This document shows positions 4,201 to 32,700 of a stretch of 64,000 nucleotides of DNA, piece by piece. Position 1 is the first letter of the stretch. Every line of letters begins with the position of its first letter. Under the pieces are notes generated by a model. That model was not told the DNA's origin. It searched no databases and saw only the letters and a list, made by a program, of their open reading frames with translations. Location: positions 15,087,185-15,151,184 of the forward strand of contig NC_135225.1 in assembly GCF_052324685.1 (NCBI RefSeq), in the 5' to 3' direction. Both the position numbers and the translations under genes were made by a program. Source of the DNA: Brachyhypopomus gauderio. Lineage: Eukaryota > Chordata > Actinopteri > Gymnotiformes > Hypopomidae.

Positions 4201-6928
4201 GATCACATTACACCCGCACTCCACTCACTGCACTGGTTAGAATAGATTTTAAGGTTCTGCTGATGGTTTTTAAATGTCTTCATGGCCTTGCTCCTCTTTA
4301 CCTCAGTGAAATGATGGTTAGATAAGTTCCAGTCAGGTCTCTCAGGTCTTCAAACAGTAATCTACTGGTGATTCCTAAAAGCTGATTAAAGATTGGCGAG
4401 GGGGCTTTTAGCCACTATGGCCCAAAGCTCTGGAACTCTCTTCCTGAAGAGCTTAGATGCATTTCATCCCTGCACAGATTCAAGAAGAGTCTCAAAACCT
4501 TCCTGTTTAGATCTGTTTTTAGTCAAGAAACTATCACATATTTTACTTTTTTAAATTTTATTTATTTTAATATCACATTATTTTACTTAACTACATTTTA
4601 TGCTTCTAATTATTTTTTATAATTTTGGCATTTTATAATTTCATTATATACTTTCATTGTTTTCTTCTATTATTTTAATAATTTATCATTTTATTATTTT
4701 ATTACCTTATTTGTTTGTTTTCTTCTGTTTCTTCAGTAAAGCAATTTGAGTTCCATGAATTTATGAAAAGGTGAAATACAAATAAAGATTATTATTATTA
4801 TTATTATGATATTATTGACAAACCAGTACCATCTCCATAATCACCACAATGTCTTATTCTGTGCCAACCAGTCATAAAAATGAGGCCCTGTGAGCTGTAG
4901 GGAAGACCAACGTATTCAAACAGTGTGCTTCAGACCATAAACAACATACAAATGTTTTAGAATCAATGTCATATTTGAGATCTATCTGAACCTACATTAA
5001 GTAGAATGTTTTATAGCAAAGTTAGCACACCTGATCACTTACTGTTTTAGTAAATTCTTATAGAAGTATAGAAATGTCAACACTGCCACTGAGACAATCA
5101 TACTGAATGAGAACCAAATAAATGATACATCCCAACAAACAAGACCATACACAATTCAGAACAGTTCTGACTGCTGTACTTAATGTAACACCACAGTACT
5201 GTTGCTCACAACACTCCAGCACTGAAGTATTCTCACTTACTCTATTACTACACAAAGCCTGGCCAGGTACTTCCTACTTATTCTGTGGGGATGATTCCTC
5301 AATGACCACCACTGCGCCAGTGTCTCTCACACTCACACACACACACATACACACACACACACCCATGCTGCTTTTACTCAATACCTCAAGGGTGTGGTCC
5401 GATATCCTCTGTGTAATTAAAGCTTTGTACAGCTTTATTGTTGTATAATGTTATTAATCATGTGCCACTTAGCAAATGCATTACTAGAAACGAGTGAACT
5501 GGCAGGCCTACCAGCACCATGGAAACAACAGCCAAGCACAGTTCCTGTTATACTCCTCTGTAACAGCAGTCTGGAGGAAAAGCCAAACCCCAGAGTCGGG
5601 GTCAGGGGTCAGGGTCCTGGTCAGCTGTGGGGATGTGCCCCACATGTCCCAGCATCCCTAGCATCACCAGCTTTAGTGACCTTTTTTAAAGTCTAAGTCT
5701 CTTAGAAACCGATCTTAAGGCCTTTCTAGCATGTGCCTTAAGACCTCACGGAAACGGTACTCCTTTATGGTCCAGTATGAATGATCTAACACACTGGAAT
5801 GATGAACGTAAATGTGACGGACATTTTTGTTAACAGAGCTACACTAGACACTCCTGGATGACAGGTGGCCCACAGACACACCTGCATTACAGGTGACCCA
5901 CAGACAGTCCGGGATTACAGGTGGTGCACAGACACTTCTGGATTACAGGTGAGTAACCTGTAATCTAAGAATTTGACTGAGCCGAGCACTCCAACCCTCA
6001 TGGCGAAGCATCACTGTAGCGTGCAGCTCTGTGTGGGGACAGGACAGACGTTCCACATACAGAACAGAACAGTGAAATAATGTGACTAACCTTGAGAAAG
6101 CTTCATCCAGATCGTCATCAAGCTCCTGTATAAGAAACAAATGCACCCGCTTTATGTTCACTGCCATCCAGAGTGACTCACAGAGGTCAGGGGTCATACT
6201 CCTTTACAAGGTCAAATTCAAGCACTTTAAAGGTCCATTTTCAATATTTTCCAGCACCTTACAGCTGTAGTAAATTACATATTTACATAAACACATCTTC
6301 AAAATGACGAATTCACTTTTTGTGAAACATAATACTTACAATTTCAAGCATTTTCAAGTACTTCAGACAAAATTCCAGCACTTTTCAAACCTTGAAAATG
6401 CAACATTAAAATTCAAGCATTTCAAAGGATGTCAAGCACCGGTATGAACTCAGAGATGTGCTCTGTAGTCGGGTCCTCATGTAACAGGTCAGTGTACTGC
6501 CGTCAGGCCTGTCTAGAGTGGATGATGGAGAAGTTTGTTTCTAAACCCGCACTGAAGTACTGCTCTGTGTGTTTACCCGCACTGAGGTACTGCCCTGTGT
6601 GTTTACCCGCACTGAGGTACTGCTCTGTGTGTTTACCCGCACTGAAGTACTGCTCTGTGTGTTTACCCGCACTGAAGTACTGCTCTGTGTGTTTACCCGC
6701 ACTGAAGTACTGCTCTGTGTGTTTACCCGCACTGAGGTACTGCCCTGTGTGTTTACCCGCACTGAGGTACTGCTCTGTGTGTTTACTCTGTGTGCTTACT
6801 GTGCTATTCTGTATGTATGTGTGATTACCCATTCAGTGGTACTGTTCTGTTCTGTTCTGTTCTGCGCTGGATGGGGGTCATTATGCACAGCACCTTGCTC
6901 CAAATTCAGCAGGTTCCCTGTAGCCACT

Positions 6929-6986
<58 letters not shown>

Positions 6987-7079: not shown

Positions 7080-7172
<93 letters not shown>

Positions 7173-7289: not shown

Positions 7290-7346
<57 letters not shown>

Positions 7347-7447
7347 ACACGCCCCCTATATGACAGGAAACTGGTTCTGGCTGAATTGGATTTAATCTAA
7401 AAGTGTCAGACCTGACAGCGAGGGGGGAAGAGAGAGACAGAGAAAAA

Positions 7448-7528
<81 letters not shown>

Positions 7529-7593
7529 TGTGTGTGTGTGAGTGTGAGTCTGTGTGTGTGTGTGTGTGAGAGTGTGTGTGTGTGTGTGTGTGT

Positions 7594-7632
<39 letters not shown>

Positions 7633-10600
7633 TGTGAGTGTGAAAGTGTGTGTGTATATATGTATATATCACCTCCTTCTCTCAGTGTGTGTGTGTGTAT
7701 CACCTCCTCCTCTCAGTGCATGCGTGCGTGTGTGTGTATCCCCTCCTCCTCTCAGTGTGGGTGTGTGTGTGTATCACCTCCTCCTCTCAGTGTGGGTGTG
7801 TGTGTGTATCACCTCCTCCTCTCAGTGTGTGTGTGTGTGTATCACCTCCTCCTCTCAGTGTGTGTGTGTGTGTGTGTGTATCACCTCCTCCTCTCAGTGT
7901 GTGTGTGTGTGTATCACCTCCTCCTCTCAGTGTGTGTGTGTGTGTATCACCTCCTCCTCTCAGTGTGTGTGTGTGTGTGTGTGTGTATCACCTCCTCCTC
8001 TCAGTGTGTGTGTGTATCACCTCCTCCTCTCAGAGTGCATCTGTCACCTCCTCCTCTCAGTGTGTGTGTGTGTGTATATCACCTCCTCCTCTCAGTGTGT
8101 GTGTGTGTGTATCACCTCCTCCTCTCAGAGTGCATGTGTCACCTCATCCTCTCAGTGTGTATGTGTGTATCCTCTCCTCCTCTCAGTGTGTGTGTGTGTG
8201 TACCACCTCCTCCTCTCAGTGTGTGTCTGTGTGTATGTGTGTATCTTCTCCTCCTCTCAGTGTGTGTGTGTGTATCCCCTCCTCCTCTCAGTGTGTGTGT
8301 GTGTATCACCTCCTCCTATTGTGGTGGTTCCATTATCTTGTCCATCAGGTGTTGTCTTCACTCGCTTCTCTTTCTCTGAGAGCAGAAACTGAGAGTGACT
8401 TTAAATACACACACACACACACACACATACACGGGATGTGCCATTTTTTATCCATCGTTTACCTATTTTCAGCCAAATAAGTGAAAAGGCTGCATAATTA
8501 TTACCGAACGATGACGTTTTTAATGGATGTTTTACGCCTTAGCTAAAGCTAAAGCTCACGGCTCCAGTGTTACACACATTAACTAAAACTCACAGATCTC
8601 TGTCTGAACTGTGTGGTGTGTGTGTGTGGGGTTAAGTTTGGTATAGTGTTAAGAGTAAGATTAGGGTTAGTAGCCAAATTTGTAGAACTATATACTATAA
8701 TTTGGAGATATCAGCAGACTATTTGTGTTTGTGACTGGCCTTCCACCACGCACACACAGACGTCCCTCACGTGACTGGCATGAAGGGATACCCAGCAGAG
8801 CATACCTTCTTCTTTGGCAGCCTGCCAGAACTCAAACGCCACCCTGAAGGCCTGAGCGACTGTTAGGGTCACTGCCTGAGCCTGGAGAGAGAGAGAGGAG
8901 GGAGAGAGAGAGAGAGAAAAGATAGACATTTAGCAAGGACAAAAAGGATATGTGTGTATATACACTACCGTTCAAAAGTTTGGGGTCACTTAGAAATGTT
9001 CTTATTTTTGAAAGAAAAGCATTTTTTTTTTCAATTTAGCTAACATTAAATGCATCAAAAATACACTCTATATATTATTAATGTGGTAAATGACTATTCT
9101 AGCTGTAAACATCTGGTTTTTAATGCAATATCTACATAGATGTATGGAGACCCATTTCCAACAACCATCACTCCAGTGTTCTAATGGTACATTGTGTTTG
9201 CTAACTCTGCTAACTCTTGCCACAGCTCGTATTGATGTGCCATCCTGGATGAGCTGCACTACCTGAGCCACTTGTGTGGGTTGTAGAGTCCGTCTCATGC
9301 TACCACGAGTGTGAAAGGACCACCAACATTCAAAAGTGACCAAAACATCAGCCAGAAAGCATATGTACTGAGAAGTGGTCTGTGGTCCCCACCTGCAGAA
9401 CCACTCCTTTATAGGGGGGGGGGGGTCTTGCTAATTGCCTCTCATTTCTACCTGCTGTCTATTCCATTTGCACAACAGCAGGTGAAATTGATTCACAATC
9501 TGTGTTGCTTCCTAACTGAACAGGTTGGTTTCACAGAAGTGTAGTTGACTTGGAGTGATATTGTGTTGTTTAAGTGTTCCCTTTATTTTTTTGAGCAGTG
9601 TATATATATATCAAAATTTATTGAATTAATTAGAAGCATTGTAATTAATTAATCAAAATTAATCGCATTTTAATCGCATTTCAATATTTAACATGAGAAA
9701 TATTTATTTAAGTTTGAATGATGAATGAATCAATGAACATAAGCATAAACTTCAACATCTTGTTTATTTTTCCACCAGTCTACTACACAGACCAATAGAT
9801 GAGTGCAGAAAACAGAGCAAACAGTTTTCAGAACACTGGAAATTCTGACCAAAAATGTTGTTTAATTTTGGGAGTTTTGCTCAGGATATTGGAAGAATAA
9901 GAAGAACTGAAGTATATCAGAAGATGTTTTTTTTTCTTTAATTCAGGCATGAAAATGGGTCAGGGGTTAAAAAGGTGAGAAGACCGGGGGCGGGGCATGT
10001 GACATCATGGGGATACGGGGCGTTGACATGTGACGTCATGGGTATACGGCGACGGGGAGGGGGGGTGGCTGCTGGTGTACGGGGATACAGCGACAGGTGA
10101 TGCCAAATATTACGGAGCCCGTAAGGTGACATCATGTAAAAAATATAATAACGCGTGGCCACGACTTACTAACGCGTGCGAACGAGATAATTAACGCGTG
10201 CGAACAAGATAATTAAGTATTACTTTATATAAAGCCAGGTTTACCTTCCTTGGGTAGTCAGTTCGCGAACATCCCTGGGATCTGCTTGCTTTGCTGTGAA
10301 AAAATAAACTTTGTTGCCGCGTGTGAAAGGCGACATTAGTATCTCGTTCCCACGCGTTAGTAAGTCGTGGCCACGCGTTATTATTTTTTTTACATGATGT
10401 CACCTTACGGGCTCCGTAAAATATAGTAAAATCCATAAAAAAAATTTTTTTGACTGTCTTGTCAATGGATTCAATATATGGAGCCAGATCCTTAAACGCG
10501 AGAGGCCGCTTTCGCCATTCCAGATGGCTCAGTCAAAACCATTACATCTTAATGAACCAATAAATACATCAGCAGCGAAAATGAGTGTAAAAATACCAGG

Positions 10601-14641: not shown

Positions 14642-17600
14642 CCCCACATACACATACACACACACACAGTATGAAACAGGCTGACTGAATCTGATGACAT
14701 CACTTCAGTGTTCACAGTGGCCTTCTGAAAATATCACTCCACTGTCTGCATTCTCTCATTCTGAAGATATCACTCCACTCCACTAAAATTGTACATATCA
14801 GATTAAACAGCCATCAGCTAATGATGACTAATAGATGTGGTAAATCTGGGTTAGAAGATGACAGGAAAACAGAAGGACACCGAGAGGTGGTGGTGAGTGA
14901 AGCCCACATACAGAAATGATCCTCCACTGGGAAATGGCAGACAAAACCAGAGTGAGACCAGGACAGAGTGAGTGTCTCCGTTTGTCCAGGACTGATTAAC
15001 CATCCCTGCAATACTGCTCTGGACAAAACGAATATGGCAACACGCAAATCAGGCATGTAACAAATCATGTGCAGCAAAACATAATGGGTTATTACTGGTA
15101 CATACTGGGTTATTACTGGGCTGCAGCTGAAACTGGCGACAATGCACATTGCCTCACTGGGGAAGGTTTACATTTATTTTTGGCCCGGCTCCTCCTTCAA
15201 GTTGTGCATCCCTGCTCTAGCAGTTGGCTGTTGTCACTGGGCATTCTACTTCAATGGGAGTTAAATATGCAGAATACTAATTTAAAAAATGGAAAAAAGG
15301 AAATCTTAGCAAATCTAGACCATGAATAAGAAGTCAAGATACTCAGACAAGAAACATTTTCTTTGAACTGTTGCTATGAAACGTGGTGTAATGGCCGTGA
15401 TGCACATGGCGCTGGCCAGCAAGTGGCCCGAATTGGGACTGATCTTTCCAGATACCTCCAGATGTACTGCTAGCTGCACGCATGAACTTCAAAACGAAAA
15501 TGAATTTCTTGAAAATGCTGCATGACGTGATGAGATGACTGAACTCGGGTCTACATCCAAAGAGTGGGTAGAACAGAGGGACGTTCACCACAGGTCTGAT
15601 AATAACAGACAATATAAGAGAAGAAGCCGCAGGTCTGATAATAACAATATAAGAGAGGGAGTCACAGGTCTGATAACAATAACACATAACATAAAAGAAG
15701 AAGCCACAGGTCTGATCATAACAATATAAGAGAGGGAGCCACAGGTCTGACAATAACACAAAATACAGGTCCTTCTCAAAAAATTAGCATATTGTGATAC
15801 AGTTCATTATTTTATGTAATGTACTGATAAACATTAGACTTTCATATATTTTAGATTCATTACATACAACTGAAGTAGTTCAAGTCTTTTATTGGCTTAA
15901 TATTGATGATTTTGACAAAAAAGTAAAGAAAAAACAAAAATCTCAAAAAAATTGCATATTTCATCCGAATAATAAAAGAAAAGTGTTTTTAATACAAAAA
16001 AAGTCATCCTTCAAATAATTATGTTCAGTTATGCACTCAATACTTGGTCGGGAATCCTTTTGCAGAAATGCTGCGTGGCATGGAGGCAACCAGCCTGTGG
16101 CACTGCTGAGGTGTTATGGAAGCCCAGGATGCTTCGATAGCACCTTAAGCTCATCCAGAGTGTTCTTGCGTCTCTCAACTTTCTCTTCACAATATCCCAC
16201 AGATTCTCTATGGGGTTCAGGTCAGGAGAGTTGGCAGGCCAATTGAGCACAGTAATACCATGGTCAGTAAACCATTTACCAGTGGTTTTGGCACTGTGAG
16301 CAGGTGCCAGGTCGTGCTGAAAAATGAAATCTTCATCTCCATAAAGCATTTCAGCAGATGGAAGCATGAAGTGCTCCAAAATCTCCTGATAGCTAGCTGC
16401 ATTGACCCTGCCCATGATAAAATACAGTGGACCAACACCAGCAGCTGACATGGCACCCCAGACCATCACCGACTGTGGGTACTTGACACTGAACTTCAGG
16501 CATTTTGGCATTTCCTTCTCCCCAGTCTTCCTCCAGACTCTGGCACCTTGATTTCCGAATGACATGCAAAATTTGCAGTGCTGCTTCTCTGTAGCCCAGG
16601 TCAGGCGCTTCTGCCGCTGTTTCTGGTTCAAAAGTGGCTTGACCGGGGGAATGCGGCACCTGTAGCCCATTTCCTGCACACGCCTGTGCACTGTGGCTCT
16701 GGATGTTTCTACTCCAGACTCGGTCCACTGCTTCCGCAGGTCCCCCAAGATCTGGAATCTGTCCTTCTCCACAGTCTTCCTCAGGGTCCGCTCACCTCTT
16801 CTTGTTGTGCAGCGTTTTCTGCTACACTTTCTCCTTCCCACAGACTTTCCACTAAGGTGCCTTGATGCAGCACTCTGGGAACAGCCTATTCGTTCAGAAA
16901 TTTCTTTCTGTGTCTTACCCTCTTGCTTGAGGGTATCAGTGATGGCCTTCTGGACATCAGTCAGGTCGGCAGTCTTACCCATGGTTACGGTTTTGAGTAA
17001 TGAAGTTTAATTTTTTATCATTACATTATGGAAAAGAATGAACTTTATTACAATATGCTATTTTTTTTTAGAAGGACCTGTATAAGAGAGGGAGCCACAG
17101 GTCTGGTAATAACATAAGAGAAGGAGCAACAAGTCCGATAATAATAGTGGAACTGTATGCAAAAGTCGGATTAACTACAGATCACTGGAGTCTAAACTAA
17201 TGGAGGAGTGACCAGTTCAGCTCGGCTGACCCGAATCATCCAGCGATCTTGTTTCATTCAGAATGTCAAGGCAACTCGATCTTAAGAAATGCCTCCGATA
17301 TGTAGCAGTTATTAAACTGTTTACAGAAATGTAAAAGGCATAGATGGATAGCTAACCACGCTAACTTTACACGACGATATCATTAACTGATAAGGTAAAT
17401 CAATGAAATAAACCGAAAGCGAACGTTAGTTTGTACAGCTGTTTACTGTGTGCGGTGCCAGTCCCGCGCTAGCAGCTAGGCTAACTCCACAGTGCCAGTC
17501 CCGCGCTAGCAGCTAGCCGCAAGGCTAACTCCGCTGAGCTGGGCGAACCGGGCCTGCACGCACCAATCTGCCGCTGTTTCCCTCCCACCACTTTATTTTC

Positions 17601-21042: not shown

Positions 21043-22309
21043 GGAGGTGGTGTGTTGAGGGGAGCACACGTGCTTTCTTCTCGTTTGAACTTTGTTTGCT
21101 AATTCACTAGTTCTCCCGCAAAACTTGCAGTCTGTGGAAAACTAGTCCTTCACACCAGATTTTAAACAACACGCGCACAACAACTTGTAACCACTAGAAA
21201 AACTAGAACACCACACAGGACTCACTCTGGATCCTCCCGTCTGGTAGTACTGAAACAGTAATACAAGCAACAAAAACGGATTCATTTTTATGGGGCTGAG
21301 ACCGTCACACCCAAAGCAAACCCGAACTTCCTTTCCTAGATCCCTCCATATCACCATCACATCTGGTGGTTCTTCAGCTGAATTGCCAGTATTCCAGAAT
21401 CTTCCTCACAGCTGGACGGGGGTTCCAGGATTCTAGAATCTTCCTCACATCTGGTTGGGGTTTTCACAATTCTATAATCTTCCTCACAGCTGGTCAGCAG
21501 TTCCAGGATTCTAGAACCTTCCTCACAGCTGGTTAGGGGTTCCAGAATTCCAGCTAGCCTCCATCATCATGCACCATTGCATGCTTCTCTGTGGGCAGGT
21601 GTCTACTGGTACTATCAACCACTTGTGGAATGCTCCTAAGATTCTCACTTTTTCAGGAGTTAAATCAAAGAGGTTCTGAATACAAATCAGGCGTTAACCA
21701 ATCCACAGCCCGTCAACGTGCAGGTTCCTGCAAACACACACAACAGGCTTAACATCTGTGAGAAGCGTCTTGAGGAAGAGGGTAACTGATGGCTTCCAAC
21801 AGTTCTTTTCTTAACACTTGTTTACTTAGCAGGGTGCGAACTCTGCAACACTGAGAACTTGAATCCAAATACTTTCCTATGTACAACAGCGCCATCATGT
21901 GGCAACACCAAAAAGCTCTCTGCTACCAAGACATCAAAAGAGAAAAATACACTTTAACAGTTCTGATGGCTGCTTCTGGCATTAGCCTAGCACTGAACAT
22001 TTAAAATTACAGCCCTAGTTACTTGGCACTGGACTACATTTTAGCACTCATCAGACATCTCATCATCAGAACTGACTGGCCAATGTAGTAAACCTTAGGA
22101 GTAATCCAACATACTCCATGAGTCCCTGAACACTGCACAATATCATTAATGTAACCCTTTCCCCTTCTAATCTACTTTCAAGCACAGTGCAATACAGCCA
22201 AATAAATAAATGTAAACGAGAGCAAATTAAATTATTTTCTGTACTAGAAGTGAAGTGGTGTTATGAAGGTGTGTTTGGATCTGTCTGGGAACAACTGTGT
22301 ACGGTCATA

Positions 22310-22850
22310 CTTAGGGGGATGGCAGAGCCATGTGGTCATATTTAGGGGCGGGGCAGAGTCACGTGGTCATATTTAGGGGCGGGGCAGTCACGTGGTCATA
22401 TTTAGGGGCGGGGCAGAGTCACGTGGTCATATTTAGGGGCGGGGCAGAGTCACGTGGTCATACTCGGGGGCGGGGCCGACTCACGTGGTCTTACTCGGGG
22501 GCGGGGCCGACTCACGTGGTCTTATTCGGGGGCGGGGCTGACTCACGTGGTCTTACGCGGGGGCGAGTCACGTGGTCTTGGTCAGGGGCGGGGCCGAGTC
22601 ACGTGGTCTTGGTCAGGGGCGGGGCCGAGTCACGTGGTCTTGGTCAGGGGCGGGGCAGAGTCACGTGGTCTTACTTAGGGGCGGGGCAGAGTCACGTGGT
22701 CTTACTTAGGGGCGGGGCAGAGTCACGTGGTCTTACTTAGGGGCGGGGCAGAGTCACGTGGTCTTACTTAGGGGCGGGGCAGAGTCACGTGGTCTTACTT
22801 AGGGGCAGGGCAGAGTCATGATGTCATACTTTGGGGCAGGGCAGAGGCCT
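22310..22850. repeat. 31-bp minisatellite carrying E-box and GC-box in each unit
   Basis: About 17 units of 31 bp. I count 15 intact CACGTG hexamers, mostly as GTCACGTGGT, and nearly every unit also has GGGGCGGGGC. The outermost units have CATGTG or CATGATG instead. Long open frames through it reflect the repeat only. Confidence 0.92.
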
Positions 22851-23760: not shown

Positions 23761-26700
23761 TTATTTTTTGAGAGGCTGGTAGACGGATGCGTTGGGGTCT
23801 AGGCTGGAAGGGCTGGTGTCCATAAACTTGGAGGAGTAGTGCGGTGTGACAGGGCTCATGTTGCTGGTGTCTGCTGAATACGCGATGCTGGGCATGACGG
23901 CCATCACCTCCGCAATCTTCTGCTTCAGGTCCTTTATCTCTTGGTCTTTCTGCAAGATCTGACCTGGGGAAAACAGGAATGTCAGGTTTCCGTATGAGGA
24001 GAAATGTTTAGAACATTCGTACATTTAAACAAAACATCCACAGCATGCACAAGCCCTGAGCAGAGGTCTGCACACTCAGGACTGACGGTGCCACACACCC
24101 GCCCCTCCTACAGCTTTCTGTCTGCTACCTTCAGCCTGACTAACCTTCATACTGATCAATATGATCTTGAGGCTGCTCTGCTAGGTGAGCTACAGTAATT
24201 AATCAGTTTTACAGGCGTCGTAGTAAAACACTCAAACATCTGTGAGGATTCCCAGAGGGCCCCGTGTTGGGGCGCTGGGTGCAGACCTTGTGCGATCTCC
24301 AGTTGTCTCTTGGCGTCTCCGAGAGCGGAGAAGAGGTCCAGCTTGATCCTGGTCTCTGCACTCAAACTGTTCTCCAGGTGCTGCGTCTTCTCCTGCATGG
24401 CTGACAGGGCGGACATCAGCACCTCCGTGTCCTTCTCGCTTTCTTTGTACTTGTGCAGCTCCTGTGGGGCACAAGGCAGCGTGCTGGACCTCAGGCACAT
24501 ACAGGAGGACCCAGAGCGGTGGAGTGAACCGCTGGGCTGTGATCGATGGTTTGGCCGGGTGTGGGAGGCGTGTTGTCACCCACCTGGACTTTGAGCTCGA
24601 GTTCGCGAATCATGTCCTCCTTGACTTTAATGTCCAGTGTGAGTTTCTTACACTCGGTCTCCAGTTCAGAGATTCTCCTCCTCAGAGTCTCTGTGCACTC
24701 ACCTCTGCATGGAGGCAGAAGGTCAGAGGCAGTTAACCACAAACTCGGGCACAAACGCGTGAGACAATGAATGGAGCAGGGGGCGGGGCAGGGGGCGGGG
24801 CACCTGGAGGCGGCTGCTAGGGCGACGGCGCGGGCCGCTGTGGCCTCCTCCAGCTTCTTGCGTTTCCTGTCGTCGGCCAGCTGTCTCTCAGCAGCGGCGC
24901 GAGCATCCTGCTCCACCTTCAGACGCTTCTCCAGCTGACCCAGCATCTGCTTGTCCTTCTGCTTTACCTGCACAGCACTGTGGAGCCTGACACACACACA
25001 CACACACACAGATACGCACACAAACACACATTAGTGTCTATTACAGCTGCAACGTGCAGACACAACACAATGCAGGTCTTTATATAAACCAATAACAATC
25101 AACCAGATAGAAATTATCCCAACAAAATCAAACTCAGTTTAGTCTTTCCTGTTTAAAACATCTGTAGTCATCATGGTGTTACTCATGTAGCACTACTGGA
25201 CTACATGGTAAATGAAGTTACAGAAAAGCTTGTAGCTGCATGGGTAGAGTGTGTGTGCATGTAGGCTTTTATGACCATGAAGTGTAGGCAGTCATGGTTC
25301 GGGGGCAGTCATGATCTGGTGGTAGGGAACTGGTCTTGTGACCGGAGGGTCATGGGTTCGATTCCCAGACCTGAGGCCATGACTGAGGTGCCCTTGAGCA
25401 AGGCACCTAACCCCAACTGCTCCCCGGGCTCCGGGCTAGGGCTGCCCACCGCTCTGGGCACATGTGATCCACAGCCCCCTAATAATCACTAGTGTGTATG
25501 TGTGTTCTAACTGCACAGATGGGTAAAAGCGGAGGACAAATTTCGATTGCTGTGAGGGGAAAAAATTAAATAAATAAATCACAATTGACATAGTATGGCA
25601 CATTTAAATTTTACATTTACAATAACACAAGTGTATATTAGAAGAAAACATAAGTGATGAGTGAAACTGGACCTCAGTTCCAACAATCACAAATCTTAGG
25701 TCACAACTTTACCAGGACCAGCGGAGGGAAAACAGATAGATTCGGACATTTTCTGAGGAGTGAAAATATTGCTAGTTGTACTACCTAAAGAATGTGAATG
25801 GGGTGTGAGTGAGAGTGGTGTGTGTGATTCAGACAGCGGTGTATGTCTGTGTGAGTGCGCGGTGTGCATGAATAAGTGATGTGTGTGAGACAGTGGTGGG
25901 TGTGTATGTGTGTGTGTGACAGTGGTGTGTGTGTTTGAGATCAAGGTGTGTGTGGTGTGTGTGCGCAGTGTGCATGAATAAGTGATTGTGTGTGTGTGTG
26001 TGTGTGTGTGTGCGCACGAGATTGAGGGTGTGTGGGTGTGTGTGTGCGTGAGAGATGTGCTGCAGTCTCTCACTTGTTCTGCAGTAGTTCATTGTCATGG
26101 CGGAGCTGACTGAGTTCTGTGCGTACGCTGCGCTCAGAGCTGCTCAGAGAGCCCAGCTGGCTACGTAGGTCCTGCTCCACCTGCCGGCTCAACTGCAGCT
26201 CCGCCTTTAGCCTCCGCACATCCTGCTCCAGCCTGTCAGACACACACACGTGAACACACACACACACACATGAACACACACACACACGTGAACACACACA
26301 CACACACACGAACACACACACACACACACGAACACACACACACACACGAACACACACACACACACAAGGCCTTTTAGGGTCACCAGTTCAGACGTACAGC
26401 ACTTGTGTTACTGGTTCACACAGAATTACACAGAATCTATACTACTAACTTTCACGGTTTATATGAGCAGCTCACAGGTGACTTACAGTGGGGCCCCATC
26501 TCCACCCTAACCCCAACCCTAACTCCAACCCTTACACCATGGGGTCTCCACTACTGTCTGAAATGGTTGATTTTGTCACTACCGTCTTTCTTCTACAAGC
26601 TCTTTATTTATTAATGCCAATTCAAGCAACGTTTGGTCAATAAAACTAAATGTTTGACTAAGTTTTAGAATTACTGTTAACAGACTATTATTAACGTCAC

Positions 26701-29700
26701 ATGATGCAGAGATAATAAATGTGGCACAACCAACATCAGAATAAACAGAAAATAGTAATTTTAAACCGTGGTGCTGATTCTTCTTGTATTGTACAGGGTG
26801 ACGGGCTTGACAAATGCAGCCATAAAACCGGTTTATTTCCCAGAGTTCTCCTCTGTGAGCACACTCACAAGAACTTGATTCTTTACACCCAAAGTTACAC
26901 CCATGTACCAACCAACACCCATCCACTCATCCTCAGGGGTGTAGGGAGCTGAAGGCATCAGGGGACTCGAAATACAAACTGGAAGAGTCCAATGCCAACA
27001 GCAGACAATAAGCTATCCTACATCCAGACAGCATTCTGAAAACTAAGGCATCCAGTGCATCAAAGTGTGGGGCTGTTGGGTAATCCGTGTGTACGAGTAC
27101 CTGACCCGTAGGTTGTGTGGGCCAGGCTGTGTGTACCTGACCCGTAGGTTGTGTGGGCCAGGCTGTGTGTACCTGACCCGTAGGTTGTGTGGGCCAGGCT
27201 GTGTGTACCTGATCCGTAGGTTGTGTGGGCCAGGCTGTGTGTACCTGACCCGTAGGTTGTGTGGGCCAGGCTGTGTGTACCTGACCCGTAGGTTGTGTGG
27301 GCCAGGCTGTGTATACCTGACCCGTAGGTTGTGTGGGCCAGGCTGTGTATACCTGACCCGTAGGTTGTGTGGGCCAGGCTGTGTGTACGATTACCTGACC
27401 AGTGCCTCAGGCCTGCTGAGCTGGTTATTGGGGATGCAGTTCTCTGCTGGATCTCGGTTTGACCCCGCCCCTTTCCCTCCCCCACACTTTTGTTTCTTCT
27501 CTCCCTTCCCTGAGGAAGAGGATGACGAGGGCGTCGCCGTGGAGGTGGGAACACTGCCATTGGCGGTTCCGTGTCCACGGGGCGATGAGTTCCCCCCGGC
27601 CACACCGCTTCCTGTGGCCTGGTTTTTAAAATTTTTGGAGGAGGTGGAGTTGGAGGAGGAGGAGCATGACGATGATGATGATGAGGAGGAGTTGTCCTCT
27701 TTGGTTTCAGTGCTGCCCAGCAGCTCAGAGCTGCTCAGTCTTTTGCCACTAGTGTGATTCTCCATGTACTCCAGTTCCTGGGCCCTGCAGTCCAGACCAG
27801 GCAGCACACTGCTGCCGCTGTTGTGGTTCTGGTTCTGGTTCTGGTTGGGCTGCTTCTTGGACTCCCTGCTCTCTGCCTTCGCACGCTCCTTCTCCCGGTA
27901 TTCCAGCTCCGGCAGAGGAGTCGTCGCGGGTTTCCTGCCACCAGCAGAGCCGTTCTGAGCCGTGGGGAGAGCGTCGGTTTCGTGGACACCTTTGACTGCA
28001 GCAGTTAGGAGAAACATGTGGAGGAACAGAGGAGCAGACTGAGTAGTGACGCCACTGTACCGTTCACCACACTGAAATCACACTCCTGCTCAACAAGACA
28101 CACTTCATATCACACAGCTCTACTTCTACAGTAATATGAAACCAACTTCACAATGACACCATGTTCATTATTCAGATGTGTCCAAGAGCACACAGGATGT
28201 CTGGTAACAAAACTGCTCTTTTATGAAAATACAGAAAGCCATCATTCAGGGGAGGATATGTGGATTTGTAGTAATGAAAACTATTTAGCCATATTGGTGA
28301 GAAAATGCTCAGATTACCTACATACACTATATTGCCAAAAGTATTCATTCACCCATGCAAATGGTCAGAATCAGGTGTTCCAATCACCTCCATGGCCACA
28401 GGTGTATAAACTTACATGCAGACTGTTTTTTACAAACATTTGTGAAAGAATGGGTCACTCTCAGGAGCTCAGTGAATTCCAGCGTGGAACTGTGATAGGA
28501 TGCCACCTGTACAACAAATCCAGTCTTGAAATTTCCTAAATATTGCACAGTCAACTGTCAGCTGTATTATAAGAAAATGGAAGTGTTTGGGTACAACAGC
28601 AACTCAGCCATGAAGTGGTAGGCCCTGTAAGCCTTGTACCCATGTTAAAATTGTAAAGCGACCATGGGTATCTTGAAAGGTGCTATATGAATTGAACGTT
28701 CAATCATTCATAAACTGACGGAGCGGGGTAAGCGGATGCTGAAGCACATAGTGTGAAGAGGTCACCGACTTTCTGCAGAGTCAATCACTACAGACATCCA
28801 AACATCATGCGGCCTTCAGATTAGCTCAAGAACAGTGCGAAGAGATTCATGTAATGGGTTTCCATGGTTGAGCAGCTGCATCCAAGCCATACATCACCAA
28901 GTGCAATGCAAAGCATCGGATGCAATGAGGAGTTACAAATCACACTTCTTCATCTGGCAATCTGATGGATGAGTCTGGGTTTGGTGGTTGCCAGGAGAAT
29001 GGTACTTGTCTGACTGCATTGTGCCAAGTGTAAATTTTGGTGGAGGGGGGATTATGGTGTGGGGTTGTTTTTCAGGAGTTAGGCTTGGCCCCTTGGTTCT
29101 AATGAAAGGAGCTCTCTCGCACAAAGCAAAGTCCATAAAAACATGGGTGCCAGAGTCTGGTGTGGATGAACTTGACTGGCCTGCACAGAGTCCTGACCTC
29201 AACCTCATGGAACACCTTTGGGATGAATTTGAGTGGAGACTTAGAGCCAGGCCTTCTCATCCAACACCAGTATGTGACCTTACAAATGTGCTTCTGGAAG
29301 AATGGTCAAAAATCCCCATAAACACATTTCTAAACCTTGTGGACAGCCTTCCTAGAAGATTGATGGTGTTCCAGCTGCAAATGGACCAACGTCATATCAA
29401 GAACCCTGTGGATTATGAATGGGATGTCACTTAAGCTAATTTGTGAGTCAACGAAGGTGAGCGAATACTTTTGGCAATATGTATGTGTTTGTATATGTAT
29501 GTATGTACGCTGTGCGCAATTGGCTGCCGCTTCTCGCCGGTGTGTGTGATTGGTTGTGTAAGAGTTGTACCTGTATTAAAATTGTAAAGTGACCTTGGGT
29601 ATCTAGAAAGGCGCTACATGTACATCATGTACATTCATTTCATGTACATATGTATTTTATACACAGAAAAACACACAAGCACATGCAGATTGAGCTCATT

Positions 29701-32700
29701 TACCCCCCCCTCCAGTCTCTTACCCTCCTCTGCCTCCCTCTCCTGTTTCTGCAGCAGCTGTTGTTCTGGAGGCAGGGCCTGCTGTAGGAGCTGCATGTAG
29801 AACTCGTTCTCCTTCTGCACCTCCTTCTGCTTACGCAGCCGCATCTTATAGGTCACGTAGCTCTTGAACCCGAAGCCCAGTGTCACCACGGGGTAGCCGA
29901 TACTGCACACGGGGCACAACACGGAGCTTACTCACACACACACACACACACACTTCACTACTAGGGAAGCTACTGAGATATACACAAATGTCTGTAAAGG
30001 TTGTGTGTGTGTGTGTGTATTAAAACACACTGGTTTGGGGACACTTCTGGGTTCCTGCTCTACTGATTAAAAATCTCCGACATCTAGGCTAAAGCTTTCA
30101 CACTTAAAATTCCTCCAGGGGTGTCTAGTATGAGTTTTAACCACCAGGAAGAAGAAAGGTTGTGTTGGACTGAAGGAGGCTTGAGAAGTATTGTTGCTTC
30201 CTCAGTGGGGAGCGTGACGTATCCTAAAAGGACAGTAATGCAGTAGGAAATCTGAGCTGAGAATCCTCCATTCAGAAAGTCTCTAATTCATCCCTGAATA
30301 GTGTGAGTGTGTGATGATGGATCTGGGTTCAGAGGATCATAATCCCACACGGCATCTGAAGGTCCATCTCAAGCTCCACATCACATGGTCAGTGATGCAG
30401 CACACGCACTGTGTCAGTCTGAAGAACGTGTGTGATCCTCACCAGTGTGCTGCGAACGGGCGACACAGATCCACGTGGAAGTCTTTCAGATCTTTGAATC
30501 TTATAGCTGCCTCTATATAAACAAAGAGTATCCATAGCGACACAGTGGGAAGGCAGACCCCTCTTTCTGCAAGAGAGAGGAAGGAGTGGGAGAGGTTAGT
30601 ATAGCACAGCTGACATCAATGAGGATGAAGCTCACACACACAGTGATGCTACAGGACACCTGCACCAACACAGGGAGCTGTCTGTGTCCTCCCCGGGTTC
30701 CATTCAAACAAGGAGACTGTAATGATGTAGGAGCTCCAGGCTCAGAGTCCCCTATAGTCCCTAAAACACCCCTATAGTCCCTAAAACACTCATGCCCCCC
30801 TCTGCTGTACAGAAAAGACACTACACACCCAACAAAGTAGGGAAATGTGCCAACAGGAGGGCGGTATCCACACCAGATTGGACTGACTGGAAACCTCAGA
30901 AATAGCGTAAGGCCTGAAGAGGTCAAGTGATGTGCTCAGAATGCAGTGGTCCATTACAGCCAGAGTTAAGCGACTGGATGACAGCTGTTCACTAATCAGA
31001 ACACGATTAAGATAAATACCGAGGACATAGTTTACTCAGCCACAGAGGAGACGACACTGGGTGTGATCTGAGACACAGCCCAGGTGTGGACAAAAGAGAT
31101 CAAATACTTTTTGTCACATGCAGAAATAACTAAGCCTACAGCTGTCCACTATAATCTGTGTGTGTGTTCAGAGAGGAAACACCATGTACGTATCCAGGAT
31201 TAGCACAGTGTCACCTTACTGAGTCATGAACATACCTAATCAACACCCCTTTTACCAGAGTCCAAATGACCCACCGTGTTTGTGCTAACAAAGCACCTCT
31301 AAACTCTGGACAGTTCTAACCCTAACCCCAACCCAACCCTAAACCCCAACTCTAACGCCACAGTCAGAGACTTCAGCTCTCACACTTAGAGGGTGTGAAA
31401 CCCTGGGGAGTGGAGAGGTTCTCGAGGGTTCAAAAGTTTTATCTCAACCCTTAAAGGGTTTTGGATAAAAGTTTGAAAGTGAGACTCAATGTATATTTTT
31501 TGTCGTGTGTATCGAGAACTTTAAGACTGAAAAAGCTGACAAACCATTGTCGATGATTGAATATACTTTTTCAATATACAAAAAGTATGCAAAGAAACAT
31601 TTTTTGTTTTATTTCATGATACAATTTCCTGTTTGATTAGCTGGTGAAAACACTTATGGACACTTAGCTTAGCGGTCTGGTAGGAAAATGCTGAAAAGTT
31701 ACATTCTGATAACACCACTGAGGAAGAAGAAAGCGGTCATAAAAACAAAAGCAAGCTAGAGTGCCACAGAGAATCCTGCTTTCTGAGGTACTCAAACACA
31801 CCTACAACACCTCAACACATATGAAGGCTGCTCAGATCTACTCACTTATTGTAACTTTTTGTTGCATGCATGCGGTTAATTCAGGCACTTTCAAACAGCT
31901 CAAAAAATAACAATGAGAATACTTCAAACATACATAATTTAATGACTTCAGTGTTTGCAGGGGAATTGGTTGCATTCAGATGCTTTGCTTGAATAAAGTA
32001 TTGTTGCCAAGTTCCAGGTGTGATGGCTTGACCTGTGCGGCCTAGTTGAGCAGGCCTTACCCGTGTGGCCTTACCTGTGTGCCAGACGTACTGCACCCAC
32101 ACGTAGGTGCTGGCGGCGAAGAACAACCACTGCACAGGGATGAACAGCAGGCAGATGATGTCTGATGTAAACGCCACACATACAAAGAACACTGAGAAAG
32201 CCTGAGGGGGAGAAGAGAGGAGGGTGACATAACGGAGCTGAAAGTCCTTCACCGCACATCAAAACCCCACATGCATTTCAGAAAGAAGGAGCATTATTTG
32301 GTTCTTACTATGACCAACATGACTGAGATGAAGTGTGTGAGAGGAGCTCACCAGACCCTGGTATCTGAAGGAGTCGTACACACTCCGGATGAAGAGCCAG
32401 AACGGCCAGAGGTACTCGAACCTGAACTCCAGCACGAAGTCCGCCAGCAGCACAAGGGCCCACACCACCAGGAACTTCAGGTACAGGAAGGTACTGCAGA
32501 GAATCAGATGCAGGAGAAGCAACACCACACGCTTCCTGGTTATGCAAACGAAAGGACATCATGAATCAAGCACTGATTTGCAGTATTGCACTTAAAAGCG
32601 CCGGACTGTGGAGATGGACCGGGACCCAGAGACAACACATCACTCCTCCGACCGGAGTCCCTCACTGGGCACATCTGTCTTTTTCAAGCCTTATAATTGT

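Follow-up and report, generated by a model that had tools for sequence, protein, structure and literature searches.

A minisatellite repeating the exon 6 donor of ldlrap1 within an AC/GT-ended intron, and two further donor-headed arrays in the same window

The window, i.e. the whole stretch of 64,000 nucleotides from Brachyhypopomus gauderio analysed here, carries on its minus strand the gene ldlrap1, with macoilin, TMEM50A and SYF2 as neighbours. The nine ldlrap1 exons join into an 861-nt open frame of 286 codons plus a single terminal stop. The nearest solved structure for the encoded protein is the PTB domain of the LDL receptor adaptor protein (PDB 3so6, E 6.3e-72), and Pfam finds a PID/PTB domain in it, while NCBIfam returned 0 families. 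The protein combines the PTB domain with an LLxLE-type clathrin box and an 11-residue block, as does human LDLRAP1 (ARH). ARH is a binding partner of clathrin and AP-2, and mutations in it are found in autosomal recessive hypercholesterolaemia (PMC6912373). A search with a 193-aa piece of the protein in genome_contigs (collections without fish) gave 79 pattern matches and no relative among them. The exons of interest are as follows:

18247-18163, 13263-13121, 12849-12737, 12499-12385, 8881-8806, 8375-8310, 6929-6829, 6125-6091 and 1358-1232, minus strand: ldlrap1 exons 1 to 9
8310-8375, minus strand: exon 6 of ldlrap1 (66 nt, phase 1/1), coding for the linker that joins the PTB domain to the clathrin box; supported by the in-frame model and a weak tblastn match to human LDLRAP1
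6829-6929, minus strand: ldlrap1 exon 7, bearing the clathrin-box-like LLNLEQ (gene model)

Two other features lie within the gene: a Tc1/mariner-like transposase frame of 325 aa (DDE_3, HTH_Tnp_Tc3_2; 16029-17006, minus strand) in intron 1, and AGAAC tandem repeats (6842-6864, minus strand) in the coding part of exon 7, on the 3' side of the clathrin-box-like motif.

The main object of this work begins at the end of exon 6:

8308-8309, minus strand: GT of the exon 6 donor, array unit 1, GAG/GTGATA (the slash marks the exon-intron border or its copy), position-weight score 5.76
7667-8317, minus strand: minisatellite of donor plus AC, 20 units by core count (TRF limits)
8257-8259, minus strand: in-frame TGA closing unit 2, met by all 15 later array donors (frame reading)

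On the minus strand exon 6 ends GGAGGAG/GTGATACACACAC (border sequence AATAGGAGGAG/GTGATACACACACACACACTGA), and this donor is indeed, as the initial annotation had recognized, unit 1 of an array that goes on repeating it. TRF reports 19.4 copies at 7667-8317, so that the last 8 bases of exon 6 lie inside the array; counting cores gives 20 units, of 27-41 nt apart from the ragged last one, mostly of the form GAGGAGGAG/GTGATA(CA)nCTGA. With at most 2 mismatches allowed, the window matches GAGGAGGAGGTGATACACAC at 17 places, all of them inside this array, and 100 shuffles give 0; the unit has no exact match in viral_contigs. The earlier count of about 20 near-identical donors holds for the units but has to be lowered for the donors themselves, since GT is retained in only 16 of 20 units (it is lost in units 2, 3, 5 and 18). 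By a human position-weight table, which is not MaxEnt and serves for ranking sites only, 15 of these 16, the true exon 6 donor included, share the 9-mer score of 5.76 (13 read GAGGTGATA and 2 GAGGTGACA), and the sixteenth, GAGGTGGTA, is weaker (3.2). The exon 6 donor is weak, with no G at +5, and among the eight ldlrap1 donors only that of exon 7 (3.54) scores below it.

It had also been proposed that the array was seeded across the exon-intron border. The overlap with the exon end is real, and seeding is plausible; however, just 8 exon bases match the unit, and an equally good match is found in 315 of 2958 random stretches, so outward growth of the array into the exon end is also possible. 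The loss of GT from units 2, 3 and 5 could be read as selection against decoys close to the true donor (hypergeometric P 0.016), a reading that we do not claim, because the edge units of arrays diverge anyway.

The reading frame sets strict limits on what the later donors could produce. The phases of exons 6 and 7 agree at unit 1, giving one uninterrupted CDS. Read-through from exon 6 adds 17 residues and then meets the TGA at 8259-8257; the first-unit read-through, said earlier to stay open, is thus open across unit 1 and unit 2 as far as this closing TGA and no further. As units 2 and 3 lack GT, each of the 15 later donors includes this premature stop, and only two of them (7991 and 7703) are in phase with exon 7. 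No full-length alternative isoform is thus available from the downstream donors, and variation of protein length through their use, which the initial annotation had expected in the form of CA-coded residues added to the linker from PTB domain to clathrin box, is ruled out for this allele at the sequence level. The product of a later donor would retain the PTB domain and lose the LLNLEQ motif of exon 7, and the slipped mRNA would be expected to decay, because exon junctions exist downstream. Alleles whose CA tract in unit 1 or 2 differs in length could be read in another frame, and since one of the array's three frames stays open over 56 codons, some of them could reach unit 4.

Between the array and the exon 7 acceptor, intron 6 contains the following tracts:

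7451-7655, minus strand: (CA)n block (gene-strand reading) with interruptions, to which the two inner GT tracts are predicted to pair
7294-7350, minus strand: GT tract a
7083-7164, minus strand: GT tract b
6930-6984, minus strand: (TG)26 and the acceptor AG of exon 7; a polypyrimidine tract is missing, and AC arms of the array are the predicted pairing partner

Lin et al. have described AC/GT introns, with AC and GT tracts at opposite intron ends and a stable structure, in zebrafish, other fish and lamprey (PMC7404189, PMC9198270), and intron 6 of ldlrap1 likewise has AC and GT at its opposite ends. AC tracts take up 50 nt of its first 100 nt and GT tracts 60 nt of its last 100 nt, and no other of the 8 ldlrap1 introns reaches 12 nt of both in these positions. 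Its GT tracts are confined to the 3' half (194 nt vs 0 nt in the first half), and its AC tracts cover 281 nt of the first half and 160 nt of the second. A missing polypyrimidine tract is our own expectation for such introns, drawn from their U2AF2 independence; at positions -22 to -3 of the exon 7 acceptor the pyrimidine fraction is 0.50, the lowest of the 8 ldlrap1 acceptors (others 0.55-1.0). Tract frequencies in the window, counted after the pattern had been seen and leaving out the exon 6 array and the CA block, are as follows: 16 of 8649 random GTs have a 12-nt AC tract within 10 nt downstream, and 15 of 8485 AGs have a GT tract within 3 nt upstream.

In the predicted fold of the 1547 nt from exon 6 to exon 7 (partition function), the array is the partner of 52.8 of the 55 nt of the acceptor tract (44.1 + 8.7 expected pairs); the long CA block pairs with the two inner GT tracts and not with the acceptor tract. 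Forcing the acceptor tract to be unpaired costs 80.6 kcal/mol. If an in silico cut leaves only 1 or 2 array units, the CA block becomes the main partner of the acceptor tract; from 5 units upward the partner is the array. The AC-UG pairing follows from the complementarity of the sequences, and three results warn against over-reading it. First, the predicted partners of the acceptor are units 11 and 14, with 0.0 pairs for unit 1. Second, in 300 sampled structures the donor nearest to the acceptor is that of unit 11, which yields the stop, in 76%, and that of unit 1 in 1%. Third, the graph distance between the exon 6 donor and the acceptor, 41.9, is not special: random stretches give 33-114, with 3 of 8 shorter, and hence we reject the shortening of this distance by the fold as specific evidence of bridging, even if all 8 block shuffles are longer (42.6-110.5, one of them barely).

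The arrangement at exon 6 is not unique, as arrays headed by a donor occur at two more places in the window:

6545-6828, minus strand: second donor array, beginning with the true donor of exon 7 at 6828 and comprising ten copies of GTAANCACACA (TRF 6545-6786, 30 bp, 8.1 copies)
27394-27999, minus strand: macoilin exon, protein match 27999-27394 ending RPEALVR; exon end 27395, donor GT 27394-27393, CAG/GTAATC
27097-27388, minus strand: third donor array, 36 bp, 8.1 copies, eight further CAG/GTA sites, most of them followed by ACACA
26233-26366, minus strand: GT-rich acceptor tract of the macoilin exon that follows (intron 6)
24987-26073, minus strand: macoilin intron 7, an AC/GT-ended intron of the plain kind, AC-rich near its donor and with a GT tract at its acceptor, in which no donor array was seen

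The ten copies of GTAANCACACA start with the ldlrap1 exon 7 donor, TGG/GTAATCACACA; elsewhere the two strands of the window contain just one more copy. With a score of 5.43, seven of the later units surpass the true donor (3.54); these seven lie at +72+30n, in frame, and lead to a TAA after 10 codons. One copy, at 6799 (+29), scores 5.62, falls out of frame and stops further on. Intron 7 of ldlrap1 has the array and AC and no GT at its acceptor. In macoilin the border GGTCAG/GTAATCGTACACACAG is followed by the eight further CAG/GTA sites of the 36-bp array, which score 3.9-4.7 where the true donor reaches 7.26; the unit contains another donor-like site, CGG/GTCAGG, with a score of 5.28. As the macoilin copies are weaker than their true donor, decoys of equal strength are not a general feature of these arrays. 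Seven of the later macoilin sites lie at multiples of 3 from the true donor, in a frame that stops at once (AG G TAA). Straight read-through past the three array-heading donors (ldlrap1 exon 6, ldlrap1 exon 7 and macoilin) meets a stop after 17, 10 and 1 codons, respectively, split codons included. Macoilin intron 6 has the same layout as ldlrap1 intron 6, with 81.2 of the 131 nt of its acceptor GT block predicted to pair with the donor and array; in macoilin intron 7, 39.3 of 63 nt of the acceptor GT are predicted to be paired without any array. No donor array was seen at the matched exon ends of SYF2 and TMEM50A (six matches each, read by eye).

Two more sites in and near macoilin deserve mention on their own account. 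At the donor CAG/GTAAGGCCACACGGGTAAGGCC (32050-32077, minus strand) a span of 22 nt contains two copies of the donor sequence, perhaps an incipient duplication. Downstream of the last matched macoilin exon lies a minisatellite of 31 bp and 17.8 copies (22303-22846), whose minus-strand unit is donor-like (6.03).

Altogether, 3 of 20 minisatellites adjoin a mapped donor on the intron side vs 0.49 on average under random placement, with P about 0.013 in a test that was likewise made after the pattern had been seen. The test comprised arrays with a period of 20-120 and at least 3 copies, and 28 donors, 12 of which (two from macoilin, five each from SYF2 and TMEM50A) are approximate, being placed near the ends of protein matches. 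For ldlrap1 alone, 2 of 8 arrays adjoin donors (P 0.021). Donor-like units as such are common, a score of 5.4 being reached by 9 of 40 array strands. Of 16 mapped introns, 8 have GT tracts of at least 12 nt within their last 100 nt and 0 have AC tracts there (P 0.008), an orientation bias that could also stem from general U-richness before acceptors. In the same 16 introns the association of AC at the donor with GT at the acceptor is not significant (Fisher P 0.28). This table leaves out two of about ten macoilin introns, which have no exact junctions, and its m1 acceptor is 2 bases off.

The explanation that we tentatively favour, with a probability somewhat short of even, is that intron 6 is an AC/GT-ended intron whose donor and AC arm were amplified together, unit 1 remaining the true donor, the later units acting as decoys, and the acceptor being used with the help of structure. 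The 5' arm, i.e. the donor with its AC tract, would have been copied with the last 8 bases of the exon into the 20-unit minisatellite, and the 3' arm would offer (UG)26 in the place normally held by the polypyrimidine tract of an acceptor. By prediction this UG tract pairs with AC arms of the array, which may in this way assist the use of the acceptor. We take unit 1 to be the working donor, as the sole copy that preserves the frame, judging the use of this and every other donor from the sequence. The later units would then be decoys of equal strength, and slipping to one of them would run into the stop that closes unit 2, with nonsense-mediated decay as the probable outcome. If the later copies truncate and expose the message to decay, array length would tune the output of mRNA and not the length of the protein. 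The decoy part of this explanation is likelier than the pairing part, and structure-assisted use of the exon 7 acceptor is possible.

A strong rival, and one nearly as likely, is that the array is neutral. It would simply have grown beside exon 6 in DNA rich in AC/GT tracts and minisatellites; unit 1 would be used as the donor nearest to the exon 6 acceptor, the others would be ignored, and the pairing would follow from composition without any function. The window indeed contains 55 perfect AC/GT tracts of at least 12 nt, covering 2% of its length, and 20 minisatellites of at least 3 copies; the graph distance and the AC/GT association are unremarkable, and unequal exchange predicts more diverged units at the edge of an array. 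On the other hand, neutrality would not lead one to expect three arrays in two genes starting at donors, or the preference for GT over AC at the 3' ends of introns.

GGAGGAG repeats are bound by SR proteins, and CA repeats by hnRNP L. The array could therefore be a putative cluster of sites for both, strengthening or repressing the weak exon 6 donor, an idea that fits a donor without G at +5 and units that have a purine core and, for the most part, a CA tract. We nevertheless regard it as improbable, since the other two arrays repeat the donor and ACAC without the GGAGGAG core. Less probable still is a linker lengthened by CA-coded residues in a frame that depends on the allele, for which the 56-codon open frame leaves some room in other alleles, against the common stop and mostly wrong phase of the 15 later donors in the present one. 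An assembly artefact in the copy number or homogeneity of the array is the least likely of all: repeat arrays of this kind are prone to assembly errors, but many units have a CA length and substitutions of their own, and the junction of the first unit with the exon is clean.

Returning to the explanation by an amplified donor and AC arm, one may speculate beyond ldlrap1, in a generalization that we consider rather unlikely, that in AC/GT introns of fish the donor and the AC arm keep amplifying as one unit, with three origins within 64 kb and two genes here. Such amplification would supply AC arms for the UG tract, the extra donors would compete, their early stops would lead to decay, and array length would become an allele-dependent dial of output.

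Several known systems share single elements with this locus. The CA repeat in intron 13 of eNOS is bound by hnRNP L and affects the use of a nearby donor. It resembles ldlrap1 in having a CA repeat near a donor but lacks a repeated donor. The repeat units of the minisatellite in human IFI6 (G1P3, 6-16) are about 12 nt long, without long AC arms. According to Turri et al. (1995), that minisatellite contains several donors, and use of two downstream units gives three mRNAs (PMC4526556). The likeness is that in both genes the units carry several donors, for ldlrap1 as read from the sequence, its array starting at a donor that is "authentic" by frame and homology and that the units repeat; in contrast, the IFI6 variants encode different isoforms, while the later exon 6 donors of ldlrap1 all truncate. 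In TERT, the intron 6 minisatellite VNTR6-1 (38-bp unit) is a splicing switch, with nonsense-mediated decay contributing; it acts via G-quadruplexes, and, unlike for the ldlrap1 array, donor-bearing units are not mentioned in the abstract (PMC11830802). Similarly, the passages on the AC/GT introns of Lin et al. make no mention of an AC arm amplified with its donor into a minisatellite, as in intron 6 of both ldlrap1 and macoilin (PMC7404189, PMC9198270). No title among the literature matches listed names a donor-repeating minisatellite in fish. What is new, as far as these sources go, is the repeated joining of a donor-supplying minisatellite to an AC/GT intron, each kind being already known alone.

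The choice of the spliceosome among identical neighbouring donors has mostly been studied with engineered minigenes. Intron 6 of ldlrap1, with a row of 15 donors that share one 9-mer score, of which the first alone keeps the frame, and with an acceptor that lacks a polypyrimidine tract, is a natural test of the proximity rule against bridging by RNA structure. The recurrence at three donors suggests that donors flanked by AC may seed minisatellites.
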